From the NCBI GenBank assembly GCA_963971425.1, contig OZ020515.1, forward strand, positions 20,456,637 to 20,520,636: a stretch of DNA of 64,000 bases. The letters run 5' to 3'. Both the position numbers and the translations under genes were made by a program. The stretch is from Bryoerythrophyllum caledonicum. Its lineage: Eukaryota; Streptophyta; Bryopsida; Pottiales; Pottiaceae. Positions 1 to 64,000 of this stretch are shown piece after piece (the stretch's first letter is position 1; each line of letters starts with the position of its first letter). The notes beneath the pieces were generated by a model that was given only the letters and a program-made list of their open reading frames with translations, had not been told where the DNA came from and did no database searches.

Positions 1-913
1 GTACGTCACGGGGTGTGAAAGGGCGTTGTTACCAAACGGGCATTAGGCGAGTATTCTCGCCTACCCTCAGTTTCAGAGCGGGAAGGGAAAAACAATAGAA
101 TTGTTAGCAAAGGACAGGAACGTGGACATTACCGCTATAGCAAAGCAGGGTCAAGTTGGGCAAGTAAGCGAGTACATCAGAGGGGACGACAAGGATCAAA
201 AAGCTCTGCGAGCAACGTGGGCAATTGTTACAATGGGCATAGTGGGGCTTCGTCCGGTCCCCCAGACATTATTGTAGGTCCACTGCCGCCACGAATTGAT
301 AAGGGCATTCCGGCGAGCCAGAGACGGGTGAGAAAGTGAGTGCAATATGAGGCGGGGCATAATTTGCGCATGAGGGAGGAGAGTTCAAGGTTGGCATTGG
401 ATGTTGTGAAGGGCAAGAGTGACAAGGAGGGTCCGAGTGTTTCAGCACGTTTCACCAATGTGGCTCCGGTAACCGCGACGGGATTTGGTGGAGACGACAA
501 TGCCAGTGGATTTTGGGTTCAAAAGAGGAATTCCAGGGTTAAGCAACTCTTCAACGTAGGTGATGTAACAGTGAGGCGTGGACGTGACTTGCCTGACGTC
601 AAACGTCCCAACACCCATTACATTTGAGAAGGAAAAAAGGGTATACGGAGTGATCAACGAGGAACATCATGTAAGTAAAACTGTAAGTGTGAAGTGTGAT
701 GCACATAGGATTAGAGTGTTTTGACTTTAATGTTTTGTTCTCATAATCTTTGTGTTAAGCTGTTAAAGTGAGCCTCAACGTTAGTATTGTTGCAGTCAAC
801 GGTAGTGTCACAGATGTATCAAGGACACGATAAGGACAAACCGGGTGAACCAGTGGAGACGTGGAACATTGGGGATGCTGTTGACAATGCGTCGGATGTA
901 GCACTGACGACCT

Positions 914-970
914 CCGTGACATTTCGGAGCGGTGTAACATTGCCGAAGAGTGTGACATTGCGCAAGTGAT
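914..970 (+). repeat. 18-bp motif repeat, three units
   Basis: The words GTGACATT, GTAACATT and GTGACATT start near 916, 934 and 952, an 18-bp spacing. The plus frame reads the hexapeptide-like series SVTFRS, GVTLPK, SVTLRK. The core is a variant of the family-1 word AGTGTTACA on the opposite strand. Confidence 0.5.
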
Positions 971-1290
971 GGAGGAGTTAGAGACAAGTTATAAATGTAG
1001 CGACAATGTGGTTTCGGACGCAATTATGCAGGGTGTTGTTCCATACGTCTTTGCACTCCCCGGAAAGGGATCTCTCACACATAGGACATGGCCGTGGAGA
1101 AAGAAACCCCCGTGGTGGGAATACGCGGACATCTTCCAAGGAGTTCTTCCAGTCTTGCACTAAATACGAGTGGCGCACATACTTCAAGTGAGCCGGCACT
1201 CGAAGTAGATAAGAGGCTACATCGGTATTGGGCTAGTAGAGCAGGAATCGTGATGTTTACTACAACACCATGAAGGCATGAGGAGTAACT

Positions 1291-2716
1291 GAGCGCATAA
1301 CGAAGTTGTTGGTTGGGCGGGATGCATATGCGGAGGACGTCAAAAACTGGGAGTTTGCAAAGTCATGTGCAATGACTTTGCCGCTACGCCCAGTGGAGCC
1401 AATGATGGTGCCTGGTTTGTACCATTCAAGCCGTACCGGGGTTCCCAATGCCGTGGAAGTGGGAGCATCATAGTGTAGAAAAATTTGTGCGGGAGTGGGA
1501 CGCAATATTTTCCATTGATGATTTCAAGGGTGTGTTCTATTCGCTATATGGGTGGTGGAATTCAACAAAAAAGGTAATGGAGTTCTCAATCCGGTCTTGC
1601 GTGTATCTTGAGCATGGCTGTGCTGCCAGTGTTACATTCATCATGATTTATCATCTTATTCCCACTAGTTTTGAAGCACAATTCAGCAGTGGATCGAGCC
1701 ATGAGAGCTGAGGTGTTGTCTTCCCTCAAAGACCTTGTCTACAGTGTACGTGAAGGAGGGGCCTTTGGCGAGGCCCGTGCGGTTGACAATCTCATACAAT
1801 GGGGACACAATGAGCGTTGCTACGAAGGGTTGCTCGAACAAATCCTCGCTCACGTAGAGATGGCAGTTGCGACAACGTTAGCTAATTACATGCAAGAACA
1901 TGCGTACAAAGACAAGGCGGCGCAGTGGGACTGGTGTCTAGTATGGCATGCAATCACTAGGTTGGAAGAGATTAGAATGAGTCTCCGACCTCTTCCATTC
2001 CAGCACAATGGTGAGTGGATTTCCAATCCTTTCACATAACTTGTAATTCCATGGCAGTGTTGCACGATCAGTGATATGTCATCCAAACAAATTGTATGCT
2101 ATCATTGTTCACAAGGTTCGTGTTATACACGGTCAGTGTTACATGGGTTTCAATGTTTCACACTGTCAGGATTATACATTTACAATGTTATATACCGTGT
2201 TATATATCGCCAATATTTACACTATTATACACCTCCAGTGTTATATACCCGTAGTATTGTGAGGGTCCAGTCTAATGTTTGAGTGATTGTGTGGCAGAAA
2301 CTAACGCGATGGTTGTGGAATCACTCTTGGTATATTCAAAAAGGGTAGGTCAGGCTGATCCAACGTCTTTTGTGTGTGTCCTAAGAATGGTGTTCGATGA
2401 CTGTTACGGACAATTCTGGACTCTATCTGGCCTACCTTTGGATTATATAAAGAGCTGGTTGCACGTCTTTGCACTTCTTTGTAGTTCACCCATGTTGTGT
2501 CGATGTTTGCAATTAGAGGGCGTTTCATTTTTGTGGGAATGCCACTAGGGTCAAGAAAGAAGCTAGAACGAGAACTCCTGGCGTAGGTGGCGGCAGTGAG
2601 ATCAGACAAGGAAGCGACATTGTCGAAGGTGTTATGCTATGGGCGCGTACAATGAGGTTGAAGGCGTTGCAGGACATGGCCCTGGTCCGTCCCGCAACGT
2701 TTCAGAGGATGTGAAT
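1291..2716 (+). pseudogene. MULE accessory gene remnant (family 1)
   Basis: Plus-strand pieces of a protein that is not a transposase. The longest open piece spans 1671-2039 (about 120 residues, with AAQWDWCLVWHAITRLEE near its end). An upstream open stretch from about 1291 contains WEFAKSCAMTLPLRPVEP. A downstream piece near 2640-2716 reads VMLWARTMRLKALQDMALV and then hits a stop. The paralogous minus-strand gene (3404-6480) has the same pieces in the same order, so this is one gene seen twice. I do not recognise a domain. In other VANDAL-like MULEs this position is held by accessory (vanB/vanC-like) genes, which is an inference here. Stops and frame changes make it non-functional as it stands. 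Confidence 0.45.
2115..2262 (+). repeat. Degenerate 16-bp array of the AGTGTTA(C/T)A word
   Basis: About nine degenerate copies of CAGTGTTATA / CAGTGTTACA / CAATGTTATA follow one another. Aligned word positions fall near 2120, 2136, 2153, 2169, 2185, 2197, 2213, 2222 and 2238, so most steps are 16 or 17 bp. The stretch is AT-rich, has no sustained coding frame and lies between two pieces of the accessory gene remnant, as an intron or spacer would. The same 16-bp step recurs independently at 4410-4470. Confidence 0.7.
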
Positions 2717-2940
2717 GGCACGGACTGGCAAAGTGTGGGATGATGTCTCACAAGACTAGGGCGTCGTTCTGTTGACACGAAAAATTGCGACATGGGGTAT
2801 TTGCCACGTTTGTGGTTGGGTCCTTTAGGAGACCCACTTGCAAAGAAGAGAACGTCAATCTTAAAGATGGTGGGAAAAATTGGGGATGCTATGGCTCAGA
2901 AGGACGACGGTAGGTGGTTTGGAGGAGACGGGTACCATAA

Positions 2941-3150
2941 AATCTGTGTTACATCGAGGGTCTCGGGCCCAGTAGAGGCAAGCAAATGTATGCAAGGAGA
3001 CGACAGTGTTACACCTTTGGCCCCTGTGATTCTAGATGCGGAGGAAGGTGAGAGGGGGGAAGATAGTGTCATAGGTTCGGACCCTAATATTCCACTAGAA
3101 AAGAAAGGTACGAGGAGGGAAGATAGTGTTACATCTTCGGTCTCGATGTA
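2941..3150 (+). repeat. 60-bp tandem array carrying AGTGTTACA
   Basis: The words GTGTTACA, GTGTTACA, GTGTCATA and GTGTTACA start at 2946, 3006, 3066 and 3126, an exact 60-bp period over four units. In the plus frame (open from 2792 to 3151) the units read as 20-residue repeats, each centred on DSVT or DSVI and otherwise rich in E, G and R. The period keeps the reading frame. The word itself is better conserved than the rest of the unit. Confidence 0.8.
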
Positions 3151-3171
3151 GATGAGGTTGCTGCCATTCTA

Positions 3172-3251
3172 CATGGCGTCGTCGTCGTCATGAATTGCCA
3201 CCCGAGTGATTCATGGCGTTGTTGTTGTTATGAATTGCCACCCTAGTGTCA
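3172..3251 (+). repeat. 40-bp tandem duplication
   Basis: Two 40-bp units start at 3172 and 3212. Each begins CATGGCGT, has a short (GTC)n or (GTT)n run, then ATGAATTGCCACCC. It sits at the junction of the plus-strand copy and the inverted copy that follows. Confidence 0.7.
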
Positions 3252-4409
3252 CAAGTCAGACCTTGTAGTGCATGAATCTTCTCTGCAACCGCGACGCTCC
3301 ACTTTGGGACAACAGTACGAAAGACGCACCCGAAGTCACGGTCCTCACGGAACGATAACCGTCATGCCCATTCCTTTGATTGGTATTCTGCACAGTGCTC
3401 CTACTATCTTGTGCACCACATTCGTGTGAACCTCTTCGGCTCGTGCCTAGCAACATCTTGCATGGATCGCAGTTGCACAACCTCGATCCATTGCATGATT
3501 CCGTCGATGATCTCCTCTCCGTGCGCGGTCTTGATAGTGCCGATGTTGTCCTTGAGCATACAACCCATCACTTCTAAGCTCTCTCCCCACCCTCCTGCAA
3601 ATAAAAAAGGCCCAAATCTTATGAAGTTCGACAACGCCCGGTTCACTTGGTGGTCGCGTTCACAAATTTTTTTATCAAGCTTCGCGTGAAACCAAACTTT
3701 GGGCATGTTATCAACTTGAACCCCCCATAATAGCTCTCGAACATGACCTTGAACACGTGCAAAAGGGATAACGGCTGCACAGCCAACACTCTAGAACAAA
3801 GTAGCTTAACTCGCATGCACTCTGCCTCGTACTCTGCATAGTAGAATCACGATCCTTTTGGGTCCCGTCAGGACAGACACGCGTAACACTGACTACCTAC
3901 CCTCCCTTAAACTACCGTAAACCTTTTCAAGATTTAGAAAACAATTGTATACATACAGAGTACCATGTCTACGGCGGTGCAGTTGCTCACCATCATGACA
4001 CTATGGAAACTTGTGCAACCTTGTATGTGACAAGTTGAATCAAAGACTGCATGCCAAAGCGGACACCAATCACATTCTGCAGCCTCGATCTCGCCAATAT
4101 ACTTTTCCCGGAACTCCATCCTAACTTGGTGCTCCTATTCTCTAAGTAATTGTGCCAAATTCTTCCAACACTCGATGCCTGCTTTCTTGCACGCAGTGAA
4201 ATCAATATGCCACTAGATATAGTCTAGCAAATCTTGTAACCCTACCCATGGCTTCTGTTCAACAAAGCTGCCACACAACAATTCCAACAAGGTCGTGATT
4301 GACCTCGCGATGGACTTTGTCGTAACCCCAATGCCGATCTGTGTAGACAGAACAAAAATTTACTAACAATATCATAGTCACTTGGATCAACAAACCCTTT
4401 ATTTAAACC

Positions 4410-4470
4410 AGTGTTACACCGATACAGTGTTATACTGATCTAATGTTACACTAGCATAGTGTTACAAACC
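4410..4470 (+). repeat. Exact 16-bp array of the family-1 word
   Basis: Four units, with GTGTTACA, GTGTTATA, ATGTTACA and GTGTTACA starting at 4411, 4427, 4443 and 4459, an exact 16-bp period. The flanking bases differ more between units than the core does. It lies in a non-coding gap of the minus-strand accessory gene remnant (about 4210-4540), probably an intron. Confidence 0.85.
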
Positions 4471-5956
4471 TGGTCGTAAATACAATTAAAATCACAGCCA
4501 CGTACCTTTATTGAGAACCTCGACCATACATACAGAGTGCCACATCATTTTTTGAACTCTTTAGTAGACAAAAAAGTATCGCAATTGTCTTGAACTCTAT
4601 CCCGCTTGTGGTCTCCCAATTCCACGGGCACAGGGCCCCTATTATATCTCTCAGTCAATATAGACTTGGTTGTATAGGCTCGAGCAGACAGGTCGGAAGA
4701 TCCTTCTGAAGCATCTTGCTCTGATCCATGTTGAACCTCCATTGTGCAATCGCCAAGGCCTCCTTCCTCCGAATGCCCCCCTCTCTACCAACGTTGAAGT
4801 CCTCAAGCCCAGGGTAGAAGGCCACCTTCTTCGGTGACCCTTTACCTTCCGCCCAATACCTCATGAGGTCTGCGTTCTTGGCAAATTTCCCTTTCCACTC
4901 AACACACAAACCCAACGTGGCAGGATAGGGCACCAGAGGCACCTCATTAGTGGTGGCCTCTTCTTTCACTAATGCAACCATTGCCGAACCTTCAATTTCA
5001 TCCGGAAGGCTTGAGGGCGTTCGAGCAAGTGTTTCTTGCAGACCCTCATGTGTCACACTCGATGCTCTATCCACCTATAAATAATGTCCAGAGTTGCCGT
5101 AAACCCTACTGCACGATGGGTGACCGGTATATCCTACGCAATATTATAAAACCCACTAACCGGCAACGACACAAAGAAATAAAGATCCAGTGTTACACCT
5201 ATTTTGTACCTTTTTGGCGGCTAGCCTTGTAAACCGTGTTTGTTTTTGTGCCTTTACATCTCTTGAGCATGAGTACGTTTCCTCGGGTCCCGAGTCTCCT
5301 CATATTGCTGCTCTTCATCCGCCGCCATCGCCGGTCCACATGAAGAACTTGCACGCCTTTCAACACGTGTCGTACATCCTCCATGTTTCTTACTCCAAGC
5401 TACGGAAGCAACAATGACAGGATCAACTCCCTCCCCTTATTCGTACCTGCAGCATTGTTAACGTTGCCTCTAAGTATCTGACGATTTAGAGTCATTTGCG
5501 CCGGATCCCTGTTCAACATTGGTAGAGGCACGAGATGTCCTTTTCATGGGCACTATGTCAGTTCTGTGGTCTTTTTCACATCCACACGTGTATTGAGGTA
5601 GAATGGGCAACGGAGTAAATGTCGTTGACGTTGCTTGGTGCTCTGCCTGTCCGGCATCTGTAACACTTGAAGTACCACAATGCTTTCTAGGCGGAATTTT
5701 CTCAAAATTGGAGTCCTCATCATCCAGATCCGCGCTCAAATTTTGTTGGCCTTCCCTATTGAGGTCAGCCATGCACGTCTGGCACGCCATAGGAACTAGC
5801 GTCCCCTTCGGTGCAACACCGTCGAAGTGCACACCTTCTCCTTTTAGCAAGCATGATCTCAACAAACTTACCTCGCCCAACATTCAAATTTGGGTAAGGA
5901 TATAGTGCTGTTGGCTTTCCATCCGACAAGCGCGCCTCCTCACATCCATTCACATA

Positions 5957-6195
5957 CAGGGTTGTTCCGGTGTCCGTCTGTCCGGTAGTGTCCGTCCGTC
6001 CGGTTGTCTGTCCGATAGAGGCTGTTGTCCATCTAATAGAGAATATTCTAGAATATTTGGATATATTCCTATAGATTTGGGGCATATTCTCTGGAATATT
6101 CTAGGCATCTGTCCGGTAAGGGTGCTGTCCGTCCTGTCCGACTGTCCGTCCGTCCGCTGTCTTTGGGCCACTATCCGTCTATATAGACAACCATG
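5957..6195. mobile_element. hAT-type MITE (239 bp)
   Basis: The ends are CAGGGTTGT on the left and, reverse-complemented, CATGGTTGT on the right. It is flanked by an exact 8-bp target duplication TTCACATA (5949-5956 and 6196-6203), the hAT signature. The interior is full of GTCCG repeats near both ends with an AT-rich centre, as in hAT subterminal regions. The paralogous copy at about 24.9 kb has a single TTCACATA (as TATGTGAA) and no insert, so it is the empty site. Confidence 0.9.
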
Positions 6196-6489
6196 TTCAC
6201 ATATTGATGAAAGTCCAGAAGGTGCTTAGAGGTGAAAACCGGGGAGCAATGGACACATTAGAAATTGTGCCTCCCCGTGGGATTTCTCGACTTCAATTTA
6301 CAGAGTGTCACCCACTCCACAATAAGAGACTCTTAATAATTCTTACTAGGGTAGTTGATGTAAGAAAACTCGTGCTCATCGATCTTGAAATTGTAGACCT
6401 GATACATATTTGGCTGCATTGTTCCGAACCCTATGTCTAGTACAGACACAAAGCAAAGAAGCCCAATTCACAACCTAGAACCCTTGCAC

Positions 6490-8405
6490 CACTATAAGAA
6501 ACCCGTGTTTTTTGTAACATGGTGAAAAACATGACTGAACGTCAAAAGTAACATGCTGTTGCGTCAATGTTGATGTCACCTAAAATCCGTCAATATAAAC
6601 AGGCCAAAAACGTCAAACAATTTGTCGTAACATGGTTGTCAACCTCTTGACATCCAACTGAACGTGGCCTGAAATGTGTGGGAAAGGGCTCCACGTGGAG
6701 GGGGCCCATGTCCACATCAGCTATGTTTTCTTTTGGGCAGCGCCACGCGGGATTTTTTTCATCCAACTCCATTTTGAGTGGGCAGTGACGTGGAATTTAA
6801 GAATTGCTGACTTGGACCCGAAGAATTATGACGTGGACAACCCACGTCAGTTGACGTCATACTATTAGAGCATTTTTCGTCCACACAAGGCTGTTACTTT
6901 TGACGTTCGTTTTGACATGCTCGTGTTGCTCATGACATCAATCTTGACGTTGGCGCGTTCTGCCTATATGTTGTTATTGACCTTTTTCATGCTGGAGATT
7001 ATGTTCACTTGAATCTAACATGTTCTTTTGGACGTTTTTCTAAACATGTTTCAAAAAAACTGCTATTCTATGTGATGGGCTCTTTAACGTGGGATGAACA
7101 TGTGACAATGTAAGTGAAGACGTCAAGCATTTGTCAGCCGTGACGTGAGTATGAACATGCCATCAACCTCTTGAGTAGTAGCAACTTGAAACAAATGAAC
7201 ATACACAGTTACCCAAAATGATCAAAACCCTAATGTGTGTGATTTGGCGCTTGCTTGGGCAATTGATGAATGAGCATGGGCATTCTGGAAGGATTTAGGG
7301 TGCCTAAAAATTGTTCTTAAGACTACGTTGGAGGAGTGCAACGGCCTAGGTCACAACTTCGGCGCTCAAGAGGATCTACAGAGCTGGAGTTTGGTGCTGC
7401 GTAGATGGGAGAGCTGCGGTTTGCAGCTTGGCGCGACCTGCGCCTCCAGGAGAAATTTGGCGCGAAGATGATTGCGAGGTGGAGCTCCGCGCAAGTTCGT
7501 GTTAGAATAACGTACCTGCAGTTCGATGCAAAGTCATCACGACGTGCTTCACGAGTTCTAAGTGAGTGGACGACTTACCGGCCTTGCTGTTGCAGCAGCC
7601 TCTCCATGGTGGCGAATACTGAACTTGGCTATGGCTAGGGTTTCCTAGCCATGGCTGAGATCAGCTATGGCTGGGGTTAGCCGGCTATGGCCAAAGCTTC
7701 CCTTGTGTTCTTCTTCCCTTTGAGCTCTCCCCTTACCGTCTTGATTTTCCGCAGATTGCCTTCCTTGCTCCCAGCTAGCACCGTCGTCACCGCTCTATGG
7801 CTCCTCCCATAGCTGCCGCCATAGCCACCGCCATAGCCGCCGTTGCTTTGCTCCATCACCTTCAAGTTGTCTCTTTCTACTCCTTCTTGTTCTCCTAATC
7901 TCCCTCCTCTTAGCGTTGTAGTGAGCTTCGCCGCTCCCCACCTCCCACTTCTATCACCTAAGTTCAATTTGCTCTCACCCACACTCTCAAAAGTAAAGTG
8001 TAGATGCTGTGGAGGTTGCTTTTGTGTAAGTCGCCCTTCGGCTCTTCCTTCCTTGCGACATATTTCATCCACTACGGATGAAAGCTGCCCATTTTCTCAG
8101 TTTTTGCTTTTGGGCAGCGGGCTGCTGTCATTCTATAGTAAAATGAAATGCAACTGTGGCTGAGGTGGACATCCCATGTTTTCTATGATGTCACAGTTTG
8201 ACGTGGTCACGTTTCTTTTGACGTCACCAAAAACGTGCATGTCTACGGTGACATCAACGCATTTTGTCTTTAACAGGAACATGTTTGATGCAACGTCAAA
8301 CTAAATTCGAGGTACTGTAGCAATTTTTTGACTAACGTGTGACATCATAGAAAACACAACACGTAACAGCCTTGACGACACCAAAAACATGGTTTTCTTA
8401 TAGTG
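6490..8405. mobile_element. Non-autonomous CACTA (En/Spm) transposon, 1.9 kb
   Basis: The ends are CACTATAAGAAA on the left and its complement CTTATAGTG on the right, close to the common plant CACTA end CACTACAAGAAA. A 3-bp duplication CAC (6487-6489 and 8406-8408) flanks it, as expected for CACTA elements. The subterminal zones are dense in AACATG and ACGTCA words on both strands, resembling transposase-binding repeats. No transposase is encoded. The family-1 copy B near 24.65 kb keeps the uninterrupted site (one CAC), which proves the ends. Confidence 0.92.
7807..7842 (-). repeat. 12-bp minisatellite inside the CACTA element
   Basis: Three 12-bp units built on CCATAGC(T/C)(G/A)CCG start at 7807, 7819 and 7831. 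On the minus strand, within an open frame at 7677-8072, they read as a GGYGGGYGGSYG stretch. Related GGCTATGGC words recur around 7620-7700. The open frame shows no recognisable domain and is probably captured or low-complexity sequence. Confidence 0.6.
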
Positions 8406-8818
8406 CACGTTTGTGGTAACCCTTGTTCTCAAGCTTGTTCACTCACATCAGAAACACTCGGATTTTGCACTAAACGGTGTAACACAAAACACTACTAAGC
8501 AGATTAAAAAAGTCTAAATAAGACAACGTGTAGGGTGTCCAAACAAGCACTGCAAAATTCCACGTAATTTTTTCTGAAAACCTCGACGCCCCTATCAATA
8601 ACCTACGAGCATACTAACATTTGGAACTAACGAACCATTTAGAAGTGAAATACACGAGAGTAGAGGCATTCAAAAAGGGGGGGTGTGCTTCTATCAGAAC
8701 TATGCAACGATGAATGACAGATTCAACCGCCATTCTAGCGTATGACTGCATTAATTGCCTGGCGGTGTAAGCAATCATACCCATTGAGTCAACAATAATC
8801 ACGAAATAGATGTGTTTA

Positions 8819-8895
8819 TAACTACACTAAAATTTATGTTTAGTGTAGTGGTACGAATAGTGTACTTACCCTAGTACACTATTTGTAATTGAGTT
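8819..8895. repeat. Two adjacent short palindromes
   Basis: CTACACTAAA and TTTAGTGTAG face each other across seven bases near 8824-8850. AATAGTGTACT and AGTACACTATT follow immediately, across about six bases, near 8857-8886. They begin exactly where homology between MULE copies A and B stops. The stretch to 9556 contains no gene that I can support. Confidence 0.6.
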
Positions 8896-9556
8896 GACAA
8901 ATAGTGTAAGCCACCAATGTCATAAATGTAAACTCCAATCAACCCCCAACTAACCCCAATCAGCCACCTAACGGCCATCATGTCTTTACTCTCCCCATTT
9001 GCCATCCTCATACTTATATCATCCCCATGCTTGCATCTTCCACTCCCCCATCATGTCATTGGTTGTTTCTGGTGAGTTTTCTGTTTGTCTTGTGATTCTT
9101 TTCTGGTGACTTGAATGAGACCTTGGAAAAAAAGGTGCATGAGGTGCATTTGATGAGTTTGATGAGTTTGATGAAGTGCATGAGGAGACTAAACCTGGGC
9201 AGTCATGAGTGTAATAGAATCTTTGCACATAAATACTGAATGGACTAAATCAGTGGGTAAGGTCATGGGCTGATCAGTGATCACTGGACTAAATTTGTTG
9301 CTCTTTGCACTAAATTTGCAGTTCATGATCGCTCTTGATATCTTCAGCTTATCCTTGCCATACAACTTCAGCCTATCTTCCCCAGGTAATTTCTTCAACA
9401 GAACTTGTTTTTTTTTCATTCTCTAAACGCGGGGGGGGGCTTATACTCCCATGGTGTGGACAGGCGGACACAGCCGTGCCAAGAATTATGGGACAAGCTC
9501 ATGACCGCCACTGAATGAATTTCATCCCTCATCCAAAAGTCTAGTAGGAATCCTTA
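8896..9556. other. Intergenic stretch before the pogo-like ORF
   Basis: No gene or RNA recognised. It holds a short TTTGATGAG direct repeat near 9150-9175 and a run of nine G near 9430. It is probably the 5' part of the pogo-like element, but no terminal inverted repeat was found. Confidence 0.5.
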
Positions 9557-11104
9557 ATGACAACGCAACGCATGCTTTCATTCGCAGGGATGGACCCCGT
9601 TGCCCACGACCGACGGCCACGCGCCCTACAACAAGTCTCCACTATACTCACTCGCAAGACGGTTGTTGCCTGGATGGTGGAAGACCGGGAGATTCATGGC
9701 AGCCGCGGATTGTATAGCCGAACGGTCCAAGCATTTTCAGAGCACTTCAAAGCTCAGCACGCCACGAACCTCGTCCGCGCCACCCGTTGGTGGGCGTTAC
9801 AAGACACTCTCTTACCCACTGATCAGCCCGTCCAGCCCGTTGCCTTATCATGCACTAGGAGTAACTTTGCCAAACGTAAGAGAGTTCTTAGCAAAGCGGC
9901 CAGCGGGCGGGGCCCACGACGGTCGGAGTGGGTCCAGTGGCTCTACCCGCGTCTCCTACAGAACTTTGAAGCATATAAACGCGCCGGAGTTAAGTTTTCT
10001 TCGACCCTACTTCTTGAACTCGGCCAATCACTTCTCTTAGGATTAGACTCACCTTATACGGTCCAGTCTAGAGATCCAAAGGATGGACGGCTATTAACGG
10101 ATAAGTTGACATCGTCGTGGATTCAACAATTCATGGATGTTAATAGCATTGTTTTACTATCTCAACGGGGCCGTTTGAGTTGTAGCCCGGAAAAAGAAGC
10201 ACAAATAAAAAAAAACACCGCACATCATTTAGGAACTTTACAACGAGGATTTCAATCGGGTGTTTTTGATGAAAATCTAGTCGAAAACCTAGATGAAACC
10301 CACTTTACAATTAACATGGACAACGGACGGGCTCTAGGATTTCGGGAGGACATTTCAGTTAAATATGCGGATGTTGTAGCCGGCGGAGAAGCAATAACTA
10401 TGGTTGTACGTATTTCAGGGGGGCGTAGATCAATCATAGAACCTCCAATGCTTATTTTCAGCAATGAAAATAGGAATTATCCTATCCGGGGTTTAGATGA
10501 CAACATCCCCGGAGTTTCTTACCGAACGGGACCAAAGGGTTGGATGGATCAAAGTATATTCCCACAATACTTTGAAGAACCTAGGGTATACCAAGCGGAC
10601 CCACACAACCGCATCAAATTCGTTTGGGTGGACAATTGTACGGGGCACAATTTAACCCCTACATTAGCGGCCGTTTTAGCACAAAAAAAAACCGTTTTGA
10701 AATACTTACCCCCGTGCGCAACCCACCTATGTCAACCGGCCGACACGTTTATAATTTCAAAGATCAAGGACGCTTGGACCAAACGATGGGAGCTCAAGAA
10801 AACCGAGTTAATTCAACCAGGCGTTTGGCAAAATAATGCTCGCGGCGACGGCCAATGGTGGGGCAAACTTTCTAATCCCGGTAAGCGTTTTTTTCTTCAA
10901 TTAGCGGCGGATTCGGTTGAAGATGTTAATCGCGAGATCGATTGTGATCACATATCATACGCTAGGAAATCTATGATAAGATGCGGCTTAGCATTAGGAT
11001 TAGATGGCACTTGGACTTCTAGCCAATTGTTTCCGCACTTGCAAGATATCATTGCAAAGCATCGTCCATACTTTGATGGACTAGAAGTGCCAAATTTGCC
11101 GTAG
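9557..11104 (+). CDS. Intact pogo-like DDE (DDE_1) transposase, 515 aa
   Basis: A single uninterrupted 515-codon ORF. The N-terminal ~180 residues are basic and Trp-rich (WVQWLYPRLLQNFEAYK), consistent with a CENP-B/pogo-type DNA-binding region. The catalytic core shows the first Asp in ENLDETHFTI (about residue 246), the second in FVWVDNCTGHN (about 359) and the third in HLCQPADTFIISKIKDAW (about 396). The last two are about 36 residues apart, as in the Tc1/mariner-pogo DDxD arrangement; CATHLCQPAD and the following KIKDAW are typical of DDE_1 proteins. There is no intron, stop or frameshift, unlike all surrounding transposon genes. Terminal repeats were not found, so the element ends are unknown. 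It may be recently active or held by selection. Confidence 0.85.
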   Translation: MTTQRMLSFAGMDPVAHDRRPRALQQVSTILTRKTVVAWMVEDREIHGSRGLYSRTVQAFSEHFKAQHATNLVRATRWWALQDTLLPTDQPVQPVALSCTRSNFAKRKRVLSKAASGRGPRRSEWVQWLYPRLLQNFEAYKRAGVKFSSTLLLELGQSLLLGLDSPYTVQSRDPKDGRLLTDKLTSSWIQQFMDVNSIVLLSQRGRLSCSPEKEAQIKKNTAHHLGTLQRGFQSGVFDENLVENLDETHFTINMDNGRALGFREDISVKYADVVAGGEAITMVVRISGGRRSIIEPPMLIFSNENRNYPIRGLDDNIPGVSYRTGPKGWMDQSIFPQYFEEPRVYQADPHNRIKFVWVDNCTGHNLTPTLAAVLAQKKTVLKYLPPCATHLCQPADTFIISKIKDAWTKRWELKKTELIQPGVWQNNARGDGQWWGKLSNPGKRFFLQLAADSVEDVNREIDCDHISYARKSMIRCGLALGLDGTWTSSQLFPHLQDIIAKHRPYFDGLEVPNLP

Positions 11105-11938
11105 GCAAATTAACCTATGTTATGTTTTTATTTTTTATAAAGTTGTGATTTACTTCCCTATCCGCCTATATATAAGTTCTTATGTTTTTCCAATGTATTT
11201 GTTGCACATGTTTCCTTTATCTAACCCCCCCAATTTTCTTATCAATTTTAAACCAAATACAATTCACAATTGTTGATTCTATTACAAGAGTAAAAAAAGC
11301 CAGAAATAACGTTTACTTCATATTTCAACCCTAGGACCTTACTTAAACTATATTAGTTAACTTGCTTATAAATATTCATCAACTTCCACCGTATGGATTG
11401 AAAGATTATGTTAATGAAGTAGAAAAATACTTCATTTCCTTTCTAGCATTATGATGATCAATAGACTTTGACTTTATTTCATGAAAAATAATTCTCTATA
11501 CGAAGTCTAAATTCATTGCCATCATGTCAATCAAGATATTAACTCCTTTTTCACCAATTTTTAGAAAAATAAATGAGGTGTAGCATATTTAAACAATTGT
11601 ACAAGAAATAGAGATTCAAACATTGTCAAATCACATTTTTATTAATTTGTGAACTTCATATTTTTTACAATGAAAATCCATACAGTCAATTTAAATGTTT
11701 GCATCACATCTTGTAGTAGAAAAGTACAAAGTGATAAACTTGAAATTCTCTAAGTTTTATGCGGAGAATAAGAAGTATTCTAGTACCATGACCCACAATG
11801 TGATAAACTGTTTGACATCGCTTAAAACTTTAATTTTCACTAGAGACAAGATATCTATTTCGACAATATTAAAGAAAATAATATTACTTGTATTGAAAAT
11901 TTCACATGAGAAGGTCGCAAAAAAAGTTTTCGGAATTA
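11105..11938. other. AT-rich intergenic stretch
   Basis: Strongly AT-rich DNA between the pogo-like ORF and the MULE transposase remnant. No coding region, RNA gene or clear repeat was recognised. Confidence 0.5.
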
Positions 11939-22058: not shown

Positions 22059-22119
22059 CTCTGAAAACCTTGAATCCTTGTTGTGAGTGATTGCTCCTGT
22101 TTCATACAACGTCAATCAG

Positions 22120-54433: not shown

Positions 54434-55556
54434 TGTTGCTCTTGTGAAGAATCCTGTCTCAGGTCCCAGAATGTGGTCAGTCTACCTCACGTCTCAGAAT
54501 GTGGTTAATCAATCTCAGGTTTCCGGTGAAGAAATGTGGTTGATCTATATGCTCCAGGAAGCCGTCGGATCTTCGTGGTGGAGGTGAAGGAAACGATCTA
54601 ACAAGCCAGGCAGTGTCATGTCACAGGCCATGACGGAGCAATCCAAACATCTCCGCTATTGCTACTCTTGTGGTGATCCTAAACATTCCCGCTGTTGTTT
54701 CTTCGTCGTATCTCAGGTCGTGCTCCAGGACGCTGTGCAGGTGGAAGTGAAGAAACAGATCGTGTCATACGTCATGATGGAGCACTGCATATGGTCGCAG
54801 ATTGGACATGGATGGTTAAATACCGAGGGACGGTGCGATGTGATCCCTGGAATTCTTGCACCGAAGGTAAGTCTACTACGGTTTGAGTGCAAGGGGCAGA
54901 TTGCCCTACCTACTACGGATCTCGGCATCCGAATCTCAACTTCCTGCCTACTCCCTTGCACAGGTACAACAACTGTGGATGAGTCCCTGACTGCTGGAAA
55001 TGCTGAGCGGATCATGCACTACGTCGAGATCCTGCATTCCCTTACGGCACTGATGAAGTCTTGCATCACTGGTTAATATGTCTTAAGACATGGCGATCGC
55101 ATGGAAAAAGATCCTTTTTAACTGAGGTTTTTTGTAAACCTAATACATTACGAGTTTCGACCGCATTTCTAAATGAAATCAGCTCTAAATAGCCCTAAAT
55201 TTCTATAATCAGCTGGAAGAGGAAAAAGGTGGCTATCGATATGGCCTCTCTTTCTTACTTCTCAAAAGATGGCTACAAGTAACTTGAGTTAGAGACCACC
55301 AAGCCACTTTGTAAGGATTCCAATTGACAGCAACCTCTCCCACGTTTTGAAGTTATTGAGGGTGGACAAAGGAGTTATACACTTCGGGTGACTTCACAAG
55401 TCACTTAGTGGAGTTTTCCCGAAAGTACTCAGGGTTTAAACCCTGACTGTCACCCCAAAACGCTGATAGGGGTTGTACACCTGAAAGTCCACTTGTTTTT
55501 GAGAAACATGGTGGTTTGGTTAACTTTGGGGTTTAATCCATAATTTATGCGTCACG
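54434..55556. other. Lectin upstream region
   Basis: Contains two degenerate copies of a segment beginning GCTCCAGGA (about 54560-54645 and 54722-54790, sharing GTGTCAT and CATGA-GGAGCA words). An open frame at 54618-55076 crosses the second copy but has no recognisable domain, so I do not call it a gene. The rest, to 55556, shows nothing. Confidence 0.45.
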
Positions 55557-56216
55557 TTAATCCCCCCATCGAACTTCTATTTTTGGGCGCCGCCGTTGCC
55601 CGTGGCTTGTTGCCCGATGACGGGTCCCTCTCCTCGACAGTGGACCCGGGGTCTGGAGCTGGGTTTGGACGGTTGACCCGTTAAAGGGTCTGGATGTCAG
55701 GTTGGGTCCCTTTTTGCACCCGATATGCAAATGATGGATCCATCCTCGACCATGGACGATATTTTTGTGATAGATGCAATGGATGGTATTTGTTGCACAT
55801 CCCAGCATAGAGAATATGCTTAGTGGACCCTTTCACCCTAGTGTAGTACAACTGTAGCTGTAGTGCAAATTGTCATGTTCGTAGGATTGTACCGCGTAGC
55901 GAAGGATTGGGCCCTTTGGGCTATTATGATATATTATATAACAATTTGTCCTACAAACGAAGGTGGATATGTAGTGCAACGACAATTCTGTGTTGCCTGA
56001 AATTTCGGATCTGAGAATTTTGAAACTGGTACCGCATCCTCCACCTAATGAAGGGATAAATTGATGCTTCGGGCCACTTATTCCACGGTCCTCCATGTTT
56101 CCTAAATCCTGGGATTTGTCTGAAGCGTAGAGATTTGTTCCTACTGAATGTTCTAGTTTGTAGAGGAAAGGTTGCTAGTTTTTTGTTGTTGACATGGTTG
56201 ACGTTTAAGGGTGAAT

Positions 56217-59200
56217 ATGGCAAAAGAGGGGTCCTCGGTGGTCGAGTTTAGCAGTACTTGTTCTGGTGAGGATGATACACACTTCGATTCCTCCTATGAG
56301 CGAAACAAAGAATGCTGCATACCATCTCTAATGCGTCACCAGGTACCTAATTTCATTGATCTTACAGGCCCTTCCAACTATGAGAGGAAGAATGCCCTAG
56401 ATAGAACTGCGTCAGAAACGCATGAAAGTACAACATTATCAGCCCATAAGCTTAACTATGTCGATCTTGAGGATGAGAGTGGCTGTCATGTGCTCCTAGG
56501 TCGATAGAAGCAGAGTCCTCGTAACTGAGCGTCATATGTTGATATAAGCTGTGAGAGAGATCGTCTTCCACTCCGAGTAGTTCTGCCAATAAGACCAGAT
56601 AATCACTCTCTTGAGGACGTGCAATCTGTCCGTAGTGTGACAAGTGCTCCAGACCCATCACTACTTGGCGCAATGTTTCCTCTTGAGCATCCTGGGCATA
56701 GTGACTCAATCCGAACTGCGACCTCCCTTGCTTCCACAGGGTCTGAGGATTCAGGTTTAGACTTTGCTGCAGATATACCGTCGTGTTCTACAGAATTGTC
56801 CCAGACAAGTTCAGTTACGTCTACCGGTGTGTCCTTGGGAGCTCAGTGTCCTACAATGGCAAGCACGCAACCACTGTATTTTGACCTTTCCTCTAGCGAT
56901 TGTACATTACGTTCATCTTACTGTGACAAACAGAAGTTAGACGATCCCAGAGGTAGTGAGTACGAAGTAACCTCAAATTCGAACCCTTCCTTCAATCCGA
57001 GAGGGCATGCTGTTGAAGAAGTTGTACTGTCAAGCCCTCAGCACAGCCACAGAGAATTCTCCAACGTAAGTAGTGATTGGAATGTCACATTTGTTGAGGG
57101 GAAGACCTTCCCTAAGGGAAAGGCTAGGAGCAGTAGAAGAGATAAACCAACAACCAGGCCGCCGTTGAAGAAGGAAAACCAAAAAGAGAGCAAACCCATG
57201 CAGCATATCTTGTCAGAGGATTGGGAGGAGGAAGACATTCCATACCAGGGGCCTGAGCATGAGGAAGAGCTGGTTAGAGGGCTTCGAGAGACGAAGCAAA
57301 CTCCTCCACCTGGTCCATTTTGCAGGGAGGATCTCACGTGGGAACCAATTCGTACCCAGGGCGGAGGCCGTCATTACATACACGAGGTCGCAATCATCCC
57401 TTGGAAGAGACTTTCAGACTTCAGGGAGGGCAAGGGACATGACAAATCGTATCCTTGTAGATTCAACAAGGAGACTGTCTCGAAGAATAAGCCAGGGAGC
57501 TTGGTACTACCAAGGGCTAACAGTGCTGCCAAGGTTATTAAGTGAGTCCTTAACTTGACCTAAATCTCCCCCTTCGTTGTTTTTGGTTGTAGTGCAACAT
57601 TGTGTATATTGTGTGTCCGGGAATGGATTTAGGGCACCGAGTGTAGTGCATCCATTGTATACGTTCAACTCAGAATAGGCTATGTCCTTTCGGTGTAGTG
57701 CATGTAGATCTACTAGTCTTACTAATTGTTTGAACTTGAGCATGTTCAACTGTAATTTTGGACCTGAAGATAATTCCCATATTTACATTAAAGACTTGAA
57801 GGGCCTTCTTCAAGCGGAACAGCAAAGGAAGAAGAAGAGGGTTACAACTGCATTAGAGAAGAAGCGCAAAGGGAAGAAGGTTATCCCGGATTTCAATGCA
57901 AAGTCTATTGATAGAAGTACAGGGCAAAAGAAGCCACGCATAGGTCAGAAGGCTGCTGGCATGTCTATGAAGCGAGGATGCCAGCGCCATTTCCTGGCAA
58001 AACAGAACTATATGGACACTACGTTCTGTCAGTTGGTGTACAAGGTTACTGAGCACGTAAATGTGCGTGGTGAGCAGTGCCACAGTGTCACGGTGCCTGG
58101 ATTCAAGCACTCCATGGGAACATCGTTGTCAGATAATATGAAGAACAAACTGGGCAGTATGTTAGACATGGGATTGACTTCTACTCAAGTTATGATCCAA
58201 CACAAGGCATGGGTAATGGAGATGGCGCTGTCGAACGCCCCAGTGAGTAGAGATATGTTTGTCCAGGCACACGACGTCCGGAACATAGCAAACAAGCGTG
58301 CACAAGAGACTTGGATGAAGCACAAGAAGGAGACCGTTAGCATCAGGCTCTGGAAGGACGAAAACATCAAGGAGGTTTTCTTTTATCAAGAACACGGTCT
58401 GCTGGATATTAACAAGAAGGAATAGGACGATGCCCCCTTCACCCTCGGATTTCAGACTGCCTGGCAGAAGACTATGTTTGTGAAATTTGGCCATCAAAGT
58501 GTTATTTCCATAGACGCCACGTTTGGTACAAGTCACTCCCGGGTAAGCAGAGTTTTAAATAACTTGAGTACCTAGAAATGTTAGTTGGTATATGTGTAGT
58601 GCAAGAAGAGTAGGTGATACTTATTGTGACTTGTACCTAAACCTTGCTCTGATACCAAACTCCTTGTGCGTTATGATTTAATGCAGTATCCATTGTATAC
58701 CGTTATGGTGTTTGACGAATGGCGGAATGGTATACCGGTTGCTTATTTCATTATCTCTAGTTCCACCGAGAACGCCTTTCAACCTGTGCTACAGGCACTG
58801 AAGGACAAAGCCTTATCTGTCAAACCTGACTGGGAGCCCTCGTCGGTAATTGTGGACAATGCTCAAGTTGAATTGAATGTCCTCGAGTAAGTAAATGTCT
58901 CTCTTTTCATTTCTTTTGAATTTGAAGGATGTGTATTTACTCAATGATCACGTGTAGTGCATCTTTCTCACGGCCATACTGCAGTACAGGGAGTTGTGGC
59001 CGAGGTCCAAGATCCTACTATGTTTCTGGCATGTTAAGAAGGCATGGGCAGAAAATGCGAAGAGCAAGATAAGTCGGATAGAGGATAGGGCGAATACATT
59101 GAAGGAGGTTGGAGAAGTTCTGTACGGCAAGAGGCATGTTGTTGGGACGGATCCTGTGGCGTGGGCTAACAAGGAGCTCGACAAGATCAAGGAGCGACGC

Positions 59201-60318
59201 CCTTCGGCTGCTAAATTCCTGAAATACATCGATAAGCAGTGGAGAAAGAAGATTGGGATGTGGTGTGCCGCAAATCGGAACGTCCCTCATGCTGGACAGA
59301 ATACAAATGCTGGTATTGAGTCTTTCCACGCTAATTTGAAGAGGATTCTGTTGTTGGAGAAGCAAAGATTCGCAGGGCGCCGGTTGGATTGGTTAGCTGA
59401 TGATCTCAAGAATAAGATTACAGGACACTACTGGTATGCCCGAGCCTTGAAGGAGTTCGGTTTTATTCGCAATACCAAATAGGAGTTTCTCATTGCCAAT
59501 GCAATCCTCCTTGCCTATGGGATCCTGAACTCGTATGTTTACATGAATCCAGAGGGGGAAGATATTGCGTTGGTGGTTTCTGTTGAGAATTATCCCAAAA
59601 TTTGGACAGTATATGGAACCGACACTGAGTGGGCACAATGTGACTGTTTTATTGGACAACAGAACACTATGTGCAAGCATGTTATGAAGGTTTTTCTTAT
59701 GAAGCATCCTGAGATTGATGAAGGACTGATTCTTAGGGAAGCTGGGACAAGGTGTGGGATTGAGAGGACCATTCCAATGGTGGATGCGTTTCGATCCAAG
59801 GGGGACTACGTTGACGATGAGGAGGAGGATCTGCCACGCCTCCTGGAGGAGGACAAAGCCTGTGTTGCGTCCCTGTCAGATAGAGGCCATGCCGGGCTAC
59901 ACAACAATCAGGCGGGTCTTGGAACGGAGTCTAATCCGATTGTTCTCTGAGATGTATCTCAGCCACAGGAGTACAAGTCTAAAGAGATACTGCGGAAATG
60001 CTTTGGTACTGAAGAGAATCCAATTTTCCTAAACCCCGTTCCCCAGCCACAGAGCCAAAAGCTAAACAGGACGACCCTTCTGCTCTGATAAAGGATCTCC
60101 TTTGTACAGCAGGGAAGCACACTGAAATTCACCACCACTTGGTAGCTCATTTGAAGAACATCCGTGGGAAGTACAGGAAGATGATAGCACGTGGAATTGC
60201 ATGCAACGAGGTGAAGGACACCACCCCAACATTCCCCTTGCGAGAAGGTGATTGGTCGTTGAAAAGGAAACCGGGTAGACTAGAATTACCTAGGGCCGGT
60301 AAGCGTCGCAGAGGTTAG
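56217..60318 (+). pseudogene. MULE transposase with SWIM zinc finger, family 2 (near-intact)
   Basis: Ser-rich, disordered N-terminus (to about 57541, donor GTGAGT), then a basic stretch and SMKRGCQRHFLAKQNYMD, TEHVNVRGEQCHSVTVPGF, the FAR1/MULE N-terminal region. The catalytic core spans three exons: SVISIDATFGTSHSR to 58541; YPLYTVMVFDEWRNGIPV and SSVIVDNAQVE (58686-58888); LWPRSKILLCFWHVKKAW and NTNAGIESFHANLKRIL from 58986. The SWIM finger CDCFIGQQNTMCKHVMKVF lies at 59640-59700. The C-terminus is basic, ending KRRRG. Four in-frame stops (TAG at 56505, 58423 and 59480; TGA near 56532) are otherwise the only lesions, so it is a young pseudogene. The introns at 58542-58685 and 58889-58985 each carry one TGTAGTGCA. 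Confidence 0.88.
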
Positions 60319-60329
60319 AAGGTAGCCCT

Positions 60330-63300
60330 CAGTGACTAGATACCGGATTCTTGTAGTGCGATCCAATGTAGTGCGAGTAATATTTTACACTACATAAAAG
60401 TACATGCAATTTACTATAACAGAGGCATAGAGTCAGATGAAGTAGAAGGTGGTCACCGCTCAGACTTCCACATTTTTTTAACATTGCGTGGAATACAAAT
60501 ACATGACAGAGTATCATTGTCGTCTGTGCATCCTTCTCCCCTAGCTACCGTGAAGACATCCCACTAAGACTTTAAAACCAATCTCAGATGTTGTCTACGC
60601 ATGAAACCTCTGACTTACAGGCACACACTCTTGATGTAAGATCCTGGTCTGAACGTAAGCTCATGTAGCTTACGACCTCCATGGAAAGTGGGTGTGTCTG
60701 CCACACCTGAGTCAAACTTGAGGAATCCACGGCTCGACAATATAGCTAAGCTCCAGTGTGTGCTATTGACAATGGGAACTATGACCGTCCTACCCTTCAT
60801 CCGTTTAAATCCCGATTTCTTACTATAAAATCTTTGTAGTGCGTCAGTTGAGTCACTTCCGTTGATGAAGGTACGAAGGCTAGTTCCTATCAGAGAATTG
60901 CATAGCAAAACCTCGTCAGGAAGGTATGCCTGAAACCAAATACAAAAGAAATCCATGAGAGGCGTAGTGAGCAATCCCTCTTCAGAATCTAGGACTTCCA
61001 TGTCTGGTATTTGGCGTAGGATTGTACTGCCCGAATCAAAAAGGAACTCCAAATGTCCCCTACTTGTGTCGCCATGCGCCAGTCTTATATGGTCCATCAT
61101 CAGTTTATGGCAGATCAATCCATTGGGGTCATAAACAGAGCTACTACTGTGCTCCCGGGGGGGGGGTCTTGTCCTGCAATGTCATTGATGTCTGCTCCTT
61201 GCACGCGTCATTGGATGAAACCAGATTCAATGCACGAATAGGGGAGAGCATTGAACGCCCACGGCGTGGACCTAACCTAAAATCAATATGGGTTGGAGTC
61301 TTCCTAAACGAGCCTGATCCAGCCCGCATGATTGGCGGCGATGGATTTCTTGTATGTAAGGAAAGAAGCTCTCTTTCCCTCACGCCCCGGTCCTCGTCTG
61401 GGTGCCCCGTCTTGGGTATGCTGGAAAGCGTTCTTGCGACTACCAATGTAACCATATCTAAGGACGTGGATTGTTGTTGACTAGCAAGTCTACCCACGGT
61501 CTTCTCCCTTGGGTCCACAACTTCCAGCGGTATGACATTGGCAGTAAGGATGGTTGGTGAGCGAGGCGTTTCAGGCTGTCCTAGGAAACCCAACTCTGTG
61601 AAAGTGCGTTGGAGCTCCTTGTCACGAAGCTCCTGAAGCAACTGTACCACGCAATTTACGGGCTCCCTCAACTCCTCAGGGACTGGTTCTTGATTGTCCA
61701 AGCCCAGCATCGACCATCCGATGTCCACATCCTCGCGTATACATAACATCTTCGACATCACCTGTAGTGCAAGAACAATCACATTATACGCTATGTAAAT
61801 ATCCAATGCAGGGAAGCTGGGAAGGTATGCTATGTAAATGATAATCAAATATCCTGGAGGGTGTTCTTACCTCGTTGCAATGAAGGCGCAGAGTTGTAGG
61901 ATCGTCTGGTCCACGAACCCACCACATGGCCGCAAGCTCAGCAGAATTTCTTCTCGTTCAGTGCAGATCCACTATTGCTCGGCGTGCAACACGGTTAAGA
62001 AACTGCTCTATCACCTGGAGTACGTCGTCCTGGTTCCACCTTTCAAAGCCCATTAGTCCCAGCATGTCTCCCCAACAGCGACGAAGTGGAGCGCAGAAAC
62101 CACCAAACATACATGGGAAAAGTGCCCAACCAATGTCAACAACATCTTGGGCACATGCCGAGAGGCGTTTCGACTCTACTGCGTCCTTGGCTATAGCAAG
62201 TATATTTGCTCTTGTCATGCCCGTAACTGGATGAGAAATTGGCGCTTGTCGTCTAAGTGAAATGCGGCCGTATAACTTGAGGGCACGGACAATATGGGGA
62301 CAGTCCAGTTCCAACGACATAGGCTCCACCTTCACATCCGACTGTAGTGCAGCAAGTGTACAGTCTAACTCTTCCTGCGTATGAGACCAAGGACGTGGCG
62401 GCAGTCCTGGAGATCCTTCCTTGCATAAAATTTGAAACATGGGGGACCATCCCCAGTCCCTGTCTTCCAAACGCATTTCTCTTTCGCAGTCGTACAGTCG
62501 GAGCTGACCTAGAATATGTGACTTGCGTCGATCCTGTAGTGCAATTTCCGCATTGAGCCGTTTGGAGACATACAACGCCTTGTCCTTGAGATACTTCAGG
62601 TACTGCTCCAGCTTGGTAAGTTCATTGTTTCTTCCATCGTGGTTTATCAACTCAATGTAAGGATTCCTGGGCTTCACAGACATCATGACAAAGTTCATTT
62701 CTTCTTCATGTAGTGCGTCACGTTCTCCCGAAGCCTGCAATACATAAAGCGTCACAATCCAGGCATTCCCGCTTGCACTACAGAACTGTGAGATTAAGAA
62801 AGTGAAATGAAACCAGAGTCAGGGTGGGTCCTACACGCGCGTACCTGTGCTTCTTTCCATGCTACCCACGGGCCTATAGAGGCAAGTATGCGGCCTCCCA
62901 GCTCGTCTCGTGATTCTAGTATTCGAAGCTCGACCATGCATTCTTCATGGTTGTGTAGGAGTCTGCGATCAATGATAGTGCTAGCTGGTGATTCCTGGAT
63001 TAGGTGATACAGCCCAGGACTGCTCTGTACCTGGGGAGGAGGGCCAATATTCGGATACGTGTTCTCCACCGTCAGAGAGGCTGCGTAACGTTGGGCTTCT
63101 TCCAATACTTCTTCCCGCATAGAATCAACGGAAAACGTATAAGACGATATAGGCGCATCTTCATGCACTATATTGGACTGAAGGGCTCCCTTTTGCGGCC
63201 CAACCCGTGCAGAGGTATGAAATCGGGATGTGTCCTCAGGATCTTCTGAATGCAGATTACTGGAGTTGAGATTCTCTCACATCCGTGAAAGCACCTCTTC

Positions 63301-64000
63301 TTCAGCCTCTTGGTCATTTTTCCTCTTTCGTGCGCCTGCCAACGAAGTACTCTTCTTCCTGGCAGGACCTTTAAGATCTCCCTTGGGATGTGCAGAAGCA
63401 CGCGGCGACCCGTGGCGATCTCGTTTGGAATACCTAACCCGAAAAACCGGCTTCCCCGTATCAGAAGATTCTCGGTCGGCCTGCACTACAGTCTTGCTAT
63501 CCCTCGTGAACTTGTCCTGCACTACCGTGGTCCTCTCCCTCTCAACCATCTCCTTTACTACGCAATCTTTCTTCTTGTACACCTTTGTCACCTGTGGCTG
63601 TTGAGTAGTGCAAGGTCCCTCCTTCCGTGGCCTCTCCTTGGGAATAACTACATCCTTACCTGTCCCCCGACTGGTTTCCTTAACAGGCTCTTTAACCTTT
63701 TTGGTCTTTGGCTGCACTACACGGGGTAGCTCTACCCTCGGGTTCCATGGACGGCCTCCCTCTTTCTCTGGGAATTTCAAATCTACTTCCTGTAGGATAC
63801 TTTTAAGCACGTGTTGTTCACTCTGAGTAAACGTTGGATACATTTTCAACACTCCAGTTCCAACTTCCCTCCACTTATCACACTGATCCTTATAACGATG
63901 ATACGAAATTGCATTCTTGTCGCTAAAGTCTTCATGACAATACTTGCACCAATAGTAATAGTGCTTCTCGTGCCCAGGGTTCTCATAGAAGTGATAATGG
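60330..64000 (-). CDS. MULE zinc-finger / Ulp1 protease gene, family 2 (5' end outside window)
   Basis: Read right to left. The edge (64000-63853) codes WCKYCHEDFSDKNAISYH and DQC, a C2-H-C finger with C-x2-C-x12-H-x5-C spacing (BED-like). 63852-63277 is basic, with VVQ-containing repeats. 63168-62794 and 62755-61958 contain LEDRDWGWSPMFQIL, alike in style to DWCLVWH of family 1, and CMFGGFCAPLRRCWGDML. 61780-61144 is a linker. 61118-60613 is a Ulp1 core with TVIVPIVNSTHWSLAIL (catalytic His) and LKFDSG (Asp). After a GTAAGT donor, an exon near 60540 gives QTTMILCHVFVFH, with Gln and Cys at Ulp1 spacing but LCH instead of the usual DCG. Introns are inferred by eye; no stop was found inside the chosen exons. 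Confidence 0.7.

Follow-up and report, generated by a model that had tools for sequence, protein, structure and literature searches.

Two families of Mutator-like transposable elements (MULEs), each crowded with a short word of its own, were found in a 64,000-nucleotide stretch of contig OZ020515.1 (positions 20,456,637 to 20,520,636), referred to below as the window. Family 1, represented by the elements E1 and E1b in the first 29 kb, carries the word AGTGTTACA, and family 2, which begins at 55.5 kb, carries TGTAGTGCA. The words accompany their families across the genome, and genes for transposases and for accessory proteins of the ULP1 protease type lie beside them. From this pattern we lean towards regarding the words as putative binding sites of a family-specific protein encoded by the elements themselves, most likely an anti-silencing protein similar to VANC of the Arabidopsis VANDAL transposons.

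Word density and family association

In the window, AGTGTTACA occurs in 20 exact copies, of which 19 lie at 1628-28488 and one stray at 44847, compared with a mean of 0.59 and a maximum of 4 in 100 shuffles of the window. For TGTAGTGCA we counted 14 exact copies, 13 at 55859-63721 and a stray at 3264 within family 1 (shuffle mean 0.47, maximum 3). An unbiased count of 9-mers returned the same words as the most over-represented ones of their regions, with 19 copies observed and 0.31 expected for AGTGTTACA in 1-29 kb, and 13 observed and 0.07 expected for TGTAGTGCA in 55-64 kb. When one mismatch is allowed, the numbers rise to 59 AGTGTTACA sites in 1-29 kb (19 of them exact) and to 24 TGTAGTGCA sites in 55.5-64 kb (13 exact and 11 near-exact). 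A preliminary description of the window had tied about 20 exact AGTGTTACA to family 1, in agreement with the present count; its 13 exact TGTAGTGCA were also recovered, but its figure of 6 near-exact ones was too low.

The family-1 segments 1-6489 and 23250-28600 hold 8 and 9 exact AGTGTTACA, or 25 and 18 at up to one mismatch, respectively, and the nested insertions at 6490-8405 and 9001-11700 hold neither exact nor one-mismatch sites. The host stretch 28601-46000 contains 1 exact AGTGTTACA and 6 at up to one mismatch, and each word was seen once in 12 control stretches of the same genome (120 kb). The near absence of the words from host genes and their excess over shuffled and host DNA, as put forward in the preliminary description, are thereby supported. 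The sequence around the words differs from site to site, except for a pyrimidine (Y) at position -1 in 17 of 19 exact family-1 sites and in 47 of 52 distinct pair strings genome-wide, and the extended form of the family-1 site reads YAGTGTTACA. Duplication of a single segment therefore fails to account for the dispersed words, whose flanks are unlike, and on this point the earlier reading holds. The most frequent spacing of AGTGTTACA pairs is 20 bp (11 of 52 distinct pair strings), with many other spacings present.

Genome-wide searches covered the 437 Mb assembly of the window's own genome and scored the best candidates (150 of 211 and 150 of 306 in the ULP searches), so that the resulting counts are lower bounds. 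Pairs of AGTGTTACA were found at 75 places versus 17 for the reversed control, and pairs of TGTAGTGCA at 57 places versus 2. For each of the 11 further family-2 transposases, a TGTAGTGCA pair was found no more than 10 kb away, and four of eight family-1 transposase relatives (68-74% amino acid identity) have a AGTGTTACA pair within the same distance; in L030, one of the four relatives without a pair, AGTGTTACA is still the top 9-mer with four exact copies. Neither pair occurs within 10 kb of the 16 next-closest or the 53 other MULE transposases, which were hand-listed from tables with 158 and 168 matches, and about 0.0017 would be expected per locus. No cross-over of words between the families was seen at the transposase loci examined. 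Transposase homology and pair association thus bear out the picture of two MULE families with one word each; the companion claim that neither word is enriched in the other family stands at these loci, although the TGTAGTGCA stray at 3264 had been overlooked.

A similar comparison was made for ULP genes, using 123 matches that were split into 9 of the family-1 type and groups of 17 and 94 (window copy excluded, two fragments merged) and a AGTGTTACA list from which close neighbours had been removed, leaving 47 of 75 entries. A AGTGTTACA pair lies within 10 kb of 6 and within 50 kb of all 9 family-1-type genes. The corresponding numbers within 10 kb are 0 of 17 and 1 of 94 for the other groups, and that single gene shares its locus with a family-1-type ULP gene. 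The idea that every related MULE family has a private word was tried and dropped: none of six sampled relatives (L026-L029, L031 and L032; 5 kb each) stood clearly above controls, and the excess words GTCCRGA (L031), CAGGCCA (L027) and CCCGCCCGC (L029) are within the control range.

Structure and gene content of the elements

The family-2 element starts at 55549 and continues beyond the window to 76314, a length of 20,766 bp including later insertions. It is bounded by an exact 9-bp target-site duplication (TSD), ATAATTTAT, at 55540-55548 (+), with the second copy at 76315-76323 outside the window. The terminal inverted repeat (TIR) is imperfect, the first 11 bases, GCGTCACGTTA, being exact; its local alignment scores 23, including part of the flanking near-palindromic duplication, versus a best score of 14 in 200 random pairs. 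Two other copies (C6 and C7) share sequence starting at the same left base, and their fetched parts contain 13 and 11 exact TGTAGTGCA and no AGTGTTACA. The thirteen exact TGTAGTGCA of the window portion (55859-63721) are located at 55859, 55970, 57588, 57642, 57694, 58595, 58953, 61763, 62343 and 62535 on the plus strand and at 62774, 63482 and 63713 on the minus strand.

Profile matches place the family-2 transposase, in several blocks and with a SWIM-like finger, at 57679-59947 (+); 11 other copies are 87-98% identical. The MULE match (PF10551, 58630-58887, E-value 4.3e-6) reaches 27.5 bits, 0.1 under the cut-off of 27.6, and the SWIM match (E 0.0039) reaches 17.1 bits, under the cut-off of 19.6. 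Accessory gene B covers 60618-64000 (-), with its frame starting at about 64164, and is paralogous (34-58% amino acid identity) to accessory gene C at 70462-74694 (-), outside the window. Both have the same three-part layout of an N-terminal zinc-finger-like motif (C-x2-C-x12-H-x5-C in gene B, identified by eye), a middle domain and a ULP1-like C-terminus; by eye, the motif of gene C lacks the first Cys. A single-sequence AlphaFold2 model of the gene-B middle domain was unusable (mean predicted local distance difference test score 34.8). The C48 domain of gene C scores 25.4 bits, over the Pfam cut-off of 20.7, also matches yeast Ulp1 and has, by eye, the His, Asp, Gln and Cys expected for a ULP1 protease. 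Of 211 candidates in the genome the best 150 were scored, and 23 matched at E<=1e-5. Twelve of these are copies of the gene-C protease at 90-100% identity, six of them free of stops, and the other 11 are gene-B paralogues at 38-42%. A family-2 transposase is found within 15 kb of 11 of the 12 gene-C copies; for the remaining one the distance is 117 kb. Pairs of TGTAGTGCA also occur in another repeat, for example at C1:34808478/34818368, C6:7597828/7608479, C3:37232889/37242913 and C9:26083129/26092889, where they look like transposon subterminal repeats.

Family 1 is represented by E1 (1-16047) and E1b (23250 to about 28600, right end approximate), which share four blocks at 76-88% identity and a common terminus. 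The right terminus of E1, ...GGAGACCAACGC, lies at 16047; its left end and TSD were searched for and not found, and the left end may lie upstream of the window. The left terminus of E1b, GCGTTGGTCTCC, is at 23250, and no transposase was found between there and about 28600. Eight exact AGTGTTACA of E1 fall in 1628-5667, at 1628, 2135, 3005, 3125, 4410, 4458 and 5189 (+) and at 5659 (-), and two in 13173-15676, at 13173 and 15668 (-). The nine of E1b (23929-28488) are at 23929 (+), 26727 and 26747 (-), 27039, 27059, 27079 and 27673 (+), and 28387 and 28480 (-), including a tandem array at 27036-27091 (+) of a 20-bp unit with one AGTGTTACA per unit.

A decayed family-1 transposase at 11942-13813 (-) is 35-52% identical in amino acids to pieces of the family-2 transposase and, by eye, reads GATFG where family 2 has DATFG. 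The N-terminal domain of an accessory gene lies at 2276-3139 (+), and a second copy of this domain lies on the opposite strand at 3329-3787 (-); they show 50-55% and 34% amino acid identity, respectively, to an open frame of a relative on C4 at 32.18 Mb (L035:99-1184). The ULP1/C48-like protease domain of the family-1 accessory gene, at 27701-28285 (-) in E1b, contains stops and matches SENP2 at E 0.005 and Pfam C48 at E 0.026, the latter under the cut-off. Six of its relatives, at 77-81% identity, are without stops, and the genome holds at least nine other family-1-type ULP genes (58-82%), six with open frames. L035 combines the N-terminal domain with a NIF-type phosphatase domain (E 2e-20) and a ULP1 domain, whose C48 match at L035:2069-2818 scores 24.6 bits, over the Pfam cut-off of 20.7; over 8 kb it has nine exact AGTGTTACA, of which six belong to an array built partly from 20-bp units.

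E1 is interrupted by two insertions. One, at 6490-8405, ends in CACTATAAGAAAC..., is free of words and is taken by us to be CACTA-like from this end sequence. The other, a DDE_1 element at about 9-11.7 kb, has an open transposase frame at 9548-11104 (+; E 2.6e-11). Next to the L035 accessory gene, a zinc-finger protein (L035:5197-6204 (-), C4:32183197-32184204) has a weak, sub-threshold match to TET/JBP-type oxygenases (E 0.084). It has 53 matches genome-wide, a few of them close (61-78%) and the rest at 24-38%, which are not tied to family-1 elements; a possible role for the gene as a demethylating partner was not retained, as its other matches are not near family-1 ULP genes. Many AGTGTTACA pairs, like most of the intact family-1 ULP genes, are located close to contig ends, which might reflect a preference of the family for subtelomeres. 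Such pairs are at C1:40 kb-4.4 Mb, C2:55 kb, C15:0.2-0.5 Mb and C12:248 kb, and at C4:32.18-32.21 of 32.35 Mb, C10:26.38 of 26.47 Mb and C9:26.953 of 26.970 Mb.

The rest of the window contains genes for a HIRAN/SNF2/RING protein (18031-22115, -), a xanthine dehydrogenase-like protein (36161-39623, +) and a phosphoesterase (43255-44421, -), a Copia-type reverse transcriptase (46901-48175, -) and a weak B_lectin match (53117-54481, -). Elsewhere in the assembly, rbcL is present on three contigs (lengths of 95 and 115 kb for two of them), with two differing versions (C821 and C894) that possibly reflect contamination. In comparisons with PDB sequences both versions scored highest with entry 9chz, above 4hhh (pea) and 1wdd (rice). 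The C821 copy is followed by a tRNA-Arg(CCG) gene, an arrangement found in bryophytes, lycophytes and gymnosperms but not known from flowering plants. These features suggest, subject to such contamination, that the host is a non-flowering land plant.

Interpretation of the words and alternative explanations

Under the binding-site reading, each MULE family would carry many sites for a sequence-specific DNA-binding protein that it encodes itself. These sites would mark the members of the family as targets, including transposase-less ones such as E1b, and the bound protein would most likely lift silencing, with loss of methylation, across the element, like VANC on VANDAL transposons. We infer that the reader of the word could be the ULP1-bearing accessory protein, that it would bind the word directly and that the outcome would be anti-silencing. 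CpG depletion, considered as a footprint of hypomethylation, was uninformative.

Several observations weigh against this reading. The DUF1985 domain, a search for which in the element proteins the preliminary description had proposed, was not detected in the frames and open reading frames scanned (not every family-1 frame) or in the genome at E<=0.001, where the search had no positive control, so that its absence is not proven. Family-2 words are about equally common in coding and other DNA: 6 of the 18 exact words of the element lie inside homology-supported coding segments, which make up 7,140 of 20,766 bp (34% of bases). The earlier placement of the words in introns, spacers and arrays fails here, and a non-coding preference as a general rule is ruled out for family 2; in the family-1 relative L035, none of the 9 words falls within the NIF or C48 matches. 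Word saturation alone is not unique to the two families, since strongly repeated words also occur in some control stretches (TCCGGAAGA in L012:5001-10000 and GACTAGTCC in L022:1-10000). A comparison of three recent family-2 copies gave differences of 0.037-0.046 in word columns, 0.032-0.034 in the remaining columns and 0.017-0.026 in the near flanks; word columns are not slower than the rest, and there is no sign of selection on the words after insertion. Nor is TGTAGTGCA confined to family 2: 29 of its 57 pair places fall in a different repeat, whose 34-bp unit frequently occurs as inverted pairs roughly 10 kb apart. Most of 36 AGTGTTACA pair loci are not tied to an identified family-1 gene. 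Finally, 15 of 16 transposases in a related group have a ULP1 gene no more than 6 kb away, but the sampled members L031 and L032 have no convincing word; the presence of such a gene is therefore no predictor of word saturation.

Among other explanations, we rate as rather unlikely that the transposase, or a helper of transposition, recognizes the words as its sites for synapsis and cutting instead of anti-silencing. Maize TNPA is such a helper for CACTA subterminal repeats. The family specificity of the word, its tandem units and its presence in the transposase-less E1b would all fit this role, as would the inverted, subterminal-like layout of several TGTAGTGCA pairs in the 34-bp repeat. However, the words are spread through 16-21 kb, including gene interiors and introns, and are not gathered at the ends, and the six sampled relatives with homologous transposases lack a convincing word. 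It seems less probable still that transposons have accumulated sites for a host transcription factor, or promoter or enhancer elements. Dispersal on either strand with one mismatch tolerated is what such sites would show, but two related families in one genome have different words without cross-over at the loci examined, and controls and host genes are nearly free of them.

Descent alone, with functionless words spreading along with a single duplicated segment or a tandem array, is very improbable. The 20-bp array at 27036-27091, the many tandem pairs of the genome and the conservation of words no better than that of their surroundings in three family-2 copies speak for it, whereas the unlike flanks of dispersed words, the 52 distinct pair strings with many units and spacings, and the retention of the word in relatives whose transposase and ULP proteins are 69% and 80% identical, respectively, speak against it. 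We give hardly any weight to codon-level repeats of the encoded proteins: several family-2 words are in frame in gene B (as ALQ or VVQ, by eye), and the ALQ at 62535 is retained in the paralogue (by eye), but words are also present in introns and spacers, 12 of 18 family-2 words are outside homology-supported coding sequence and all 9 L035 words are outside the NIF and C48 matches.

Comparison with known systems

Sequence-specific anti-silencing by transposons has been demonstrated in Arabidopsis, where VANC21 is reported by Hosaka et al. (2017, PMC5735166) to bind the site YAGTATTAY in vitro and in vivo. This motif is described as dense, often in tandem repeats and enriched in VANDAL21, and single-base changes in it drastically cut VANC21 binding in electrophoretic mobility shift assays (PMC5735166). 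The family-1 site YAGTGTTACA is nearly identical to it, with a one-base difference (the Arabidopsis word is AGTATTAC), and the closeness to the VANDAL21 motif that the preliminary description pointed out is supported (PMC5735166). VANDAL21 (Hiun) with its VANC21 is, like family 2, a MULE with a transposase and two accessory genes, and has a dense, family-specific 9-nucleotide motif that is often in tandem repeats. By this analogy the two paralogous family-2 accessory genes beside the transposase may be comparable with VANB and VANC. In contrast to family 2, the VANDAL21 motifs are mainly non-coding, and their function is demonstrated, whereas that of the words described here is putative.

VANC proteins are reported to contain DUF1985 and DUF287 (PMC5735166), of which DUF1985 was not found in our searches. 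VANDAL6 with VANC6 offers a further likeness, as a related family with its own motif (AGTTGTCC/AGTTGTAC; PMC5735166) and its own target set; its word is a different one and its protein again has DUF1985. VANDAL elements are described as having absent or short and degenerate TIRs, and MULE TSDs as being 8-11 bp long (PMC6446971); the former resembles the imperfect terminal match of family 2, which has its first 11 bases exact. RNA-directed DNA methylation is reported to act on VANDAL non-coding regions (Sasaki et al. 2023, PMC10398659).

For the Kaonashi (KIU) systems, a 2026 review states that Ulp1 (KIU) is present in some of the VANC genes and that the Vandals with KIU each act on motifs of their own, for which it cites Sasaki et al. 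2022 (PMC13317346). MULE accessory genes with a ULP1/C48 domain, there described as motif-guided anti-silencers (PMC13317346), are what we see in both families. Unlike in KIU systems, the ULP1 domain is here accompanied by an N-terminal C2HC-like zinc-finger motif (family 2) or a NIF phosphatase domain (L035), and the host is apparently not a flowering plant but the KIU hosts are eudicots. In the 2022 study of Sasaki and co-workers, these systems are said to have arisen in eudicots and motif spacing reportedly follows the helical turn. To our knowledge, sequence-specific transposon anti-silencing has been traced only within eudicots. CACTA/En-Spm elements with TNPA present another case of an element-encoded protein, a short repeated site and a link to methylation, with sites clustered at the termini; here the words run through the element and the transposase is of the MULE type. 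A CACTA element with TNPA-type subterminal repeats is ruled out by this transposase, by the termini GCGTCACGTTA and GCGTTGGTCTCC and by the 9-bp TSD.

The assignment to MULEs rests on the DDE transposase of family 2 (just under the cut-off) and its 9-bp TSD, and on homology for family 1. A family-specific short motif at high density, as in VANDAL elements, is present despite the 29 of 57 TGTAGTGCA places elsewhere, and a ULP1/C48 domain, as in KIU, is found in the accessory genes (gene C and L035; below the cut-off in E1b). We only tentatively entertain the broader proposal of word-guided, family-private MULE anti-silencing in a non-flowering land plant, in which the agents would be ULP1 proteins that carry a zinc finger or a NIF phosphatase domain in place of DUF1985, and the family-1 site would be of the same lineage as the VANC21 site YAGTATTAY. 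If this were true, the system, and perhaps the recognition code too, would be older than flowering plants; the presence of two such words in a genome other than that of Arabidopsis, with one of them differing from the VANC21 site by a base, would show that address systems of this kind are old or arise repeatedly. Natural protein-site pairs of this kind would help to read the recognition code and could be used as new programmable hypomethylation tools. With the VANC domain missing as far as tested, the system looks VANC-like in its sites and KIU-like in its genes.

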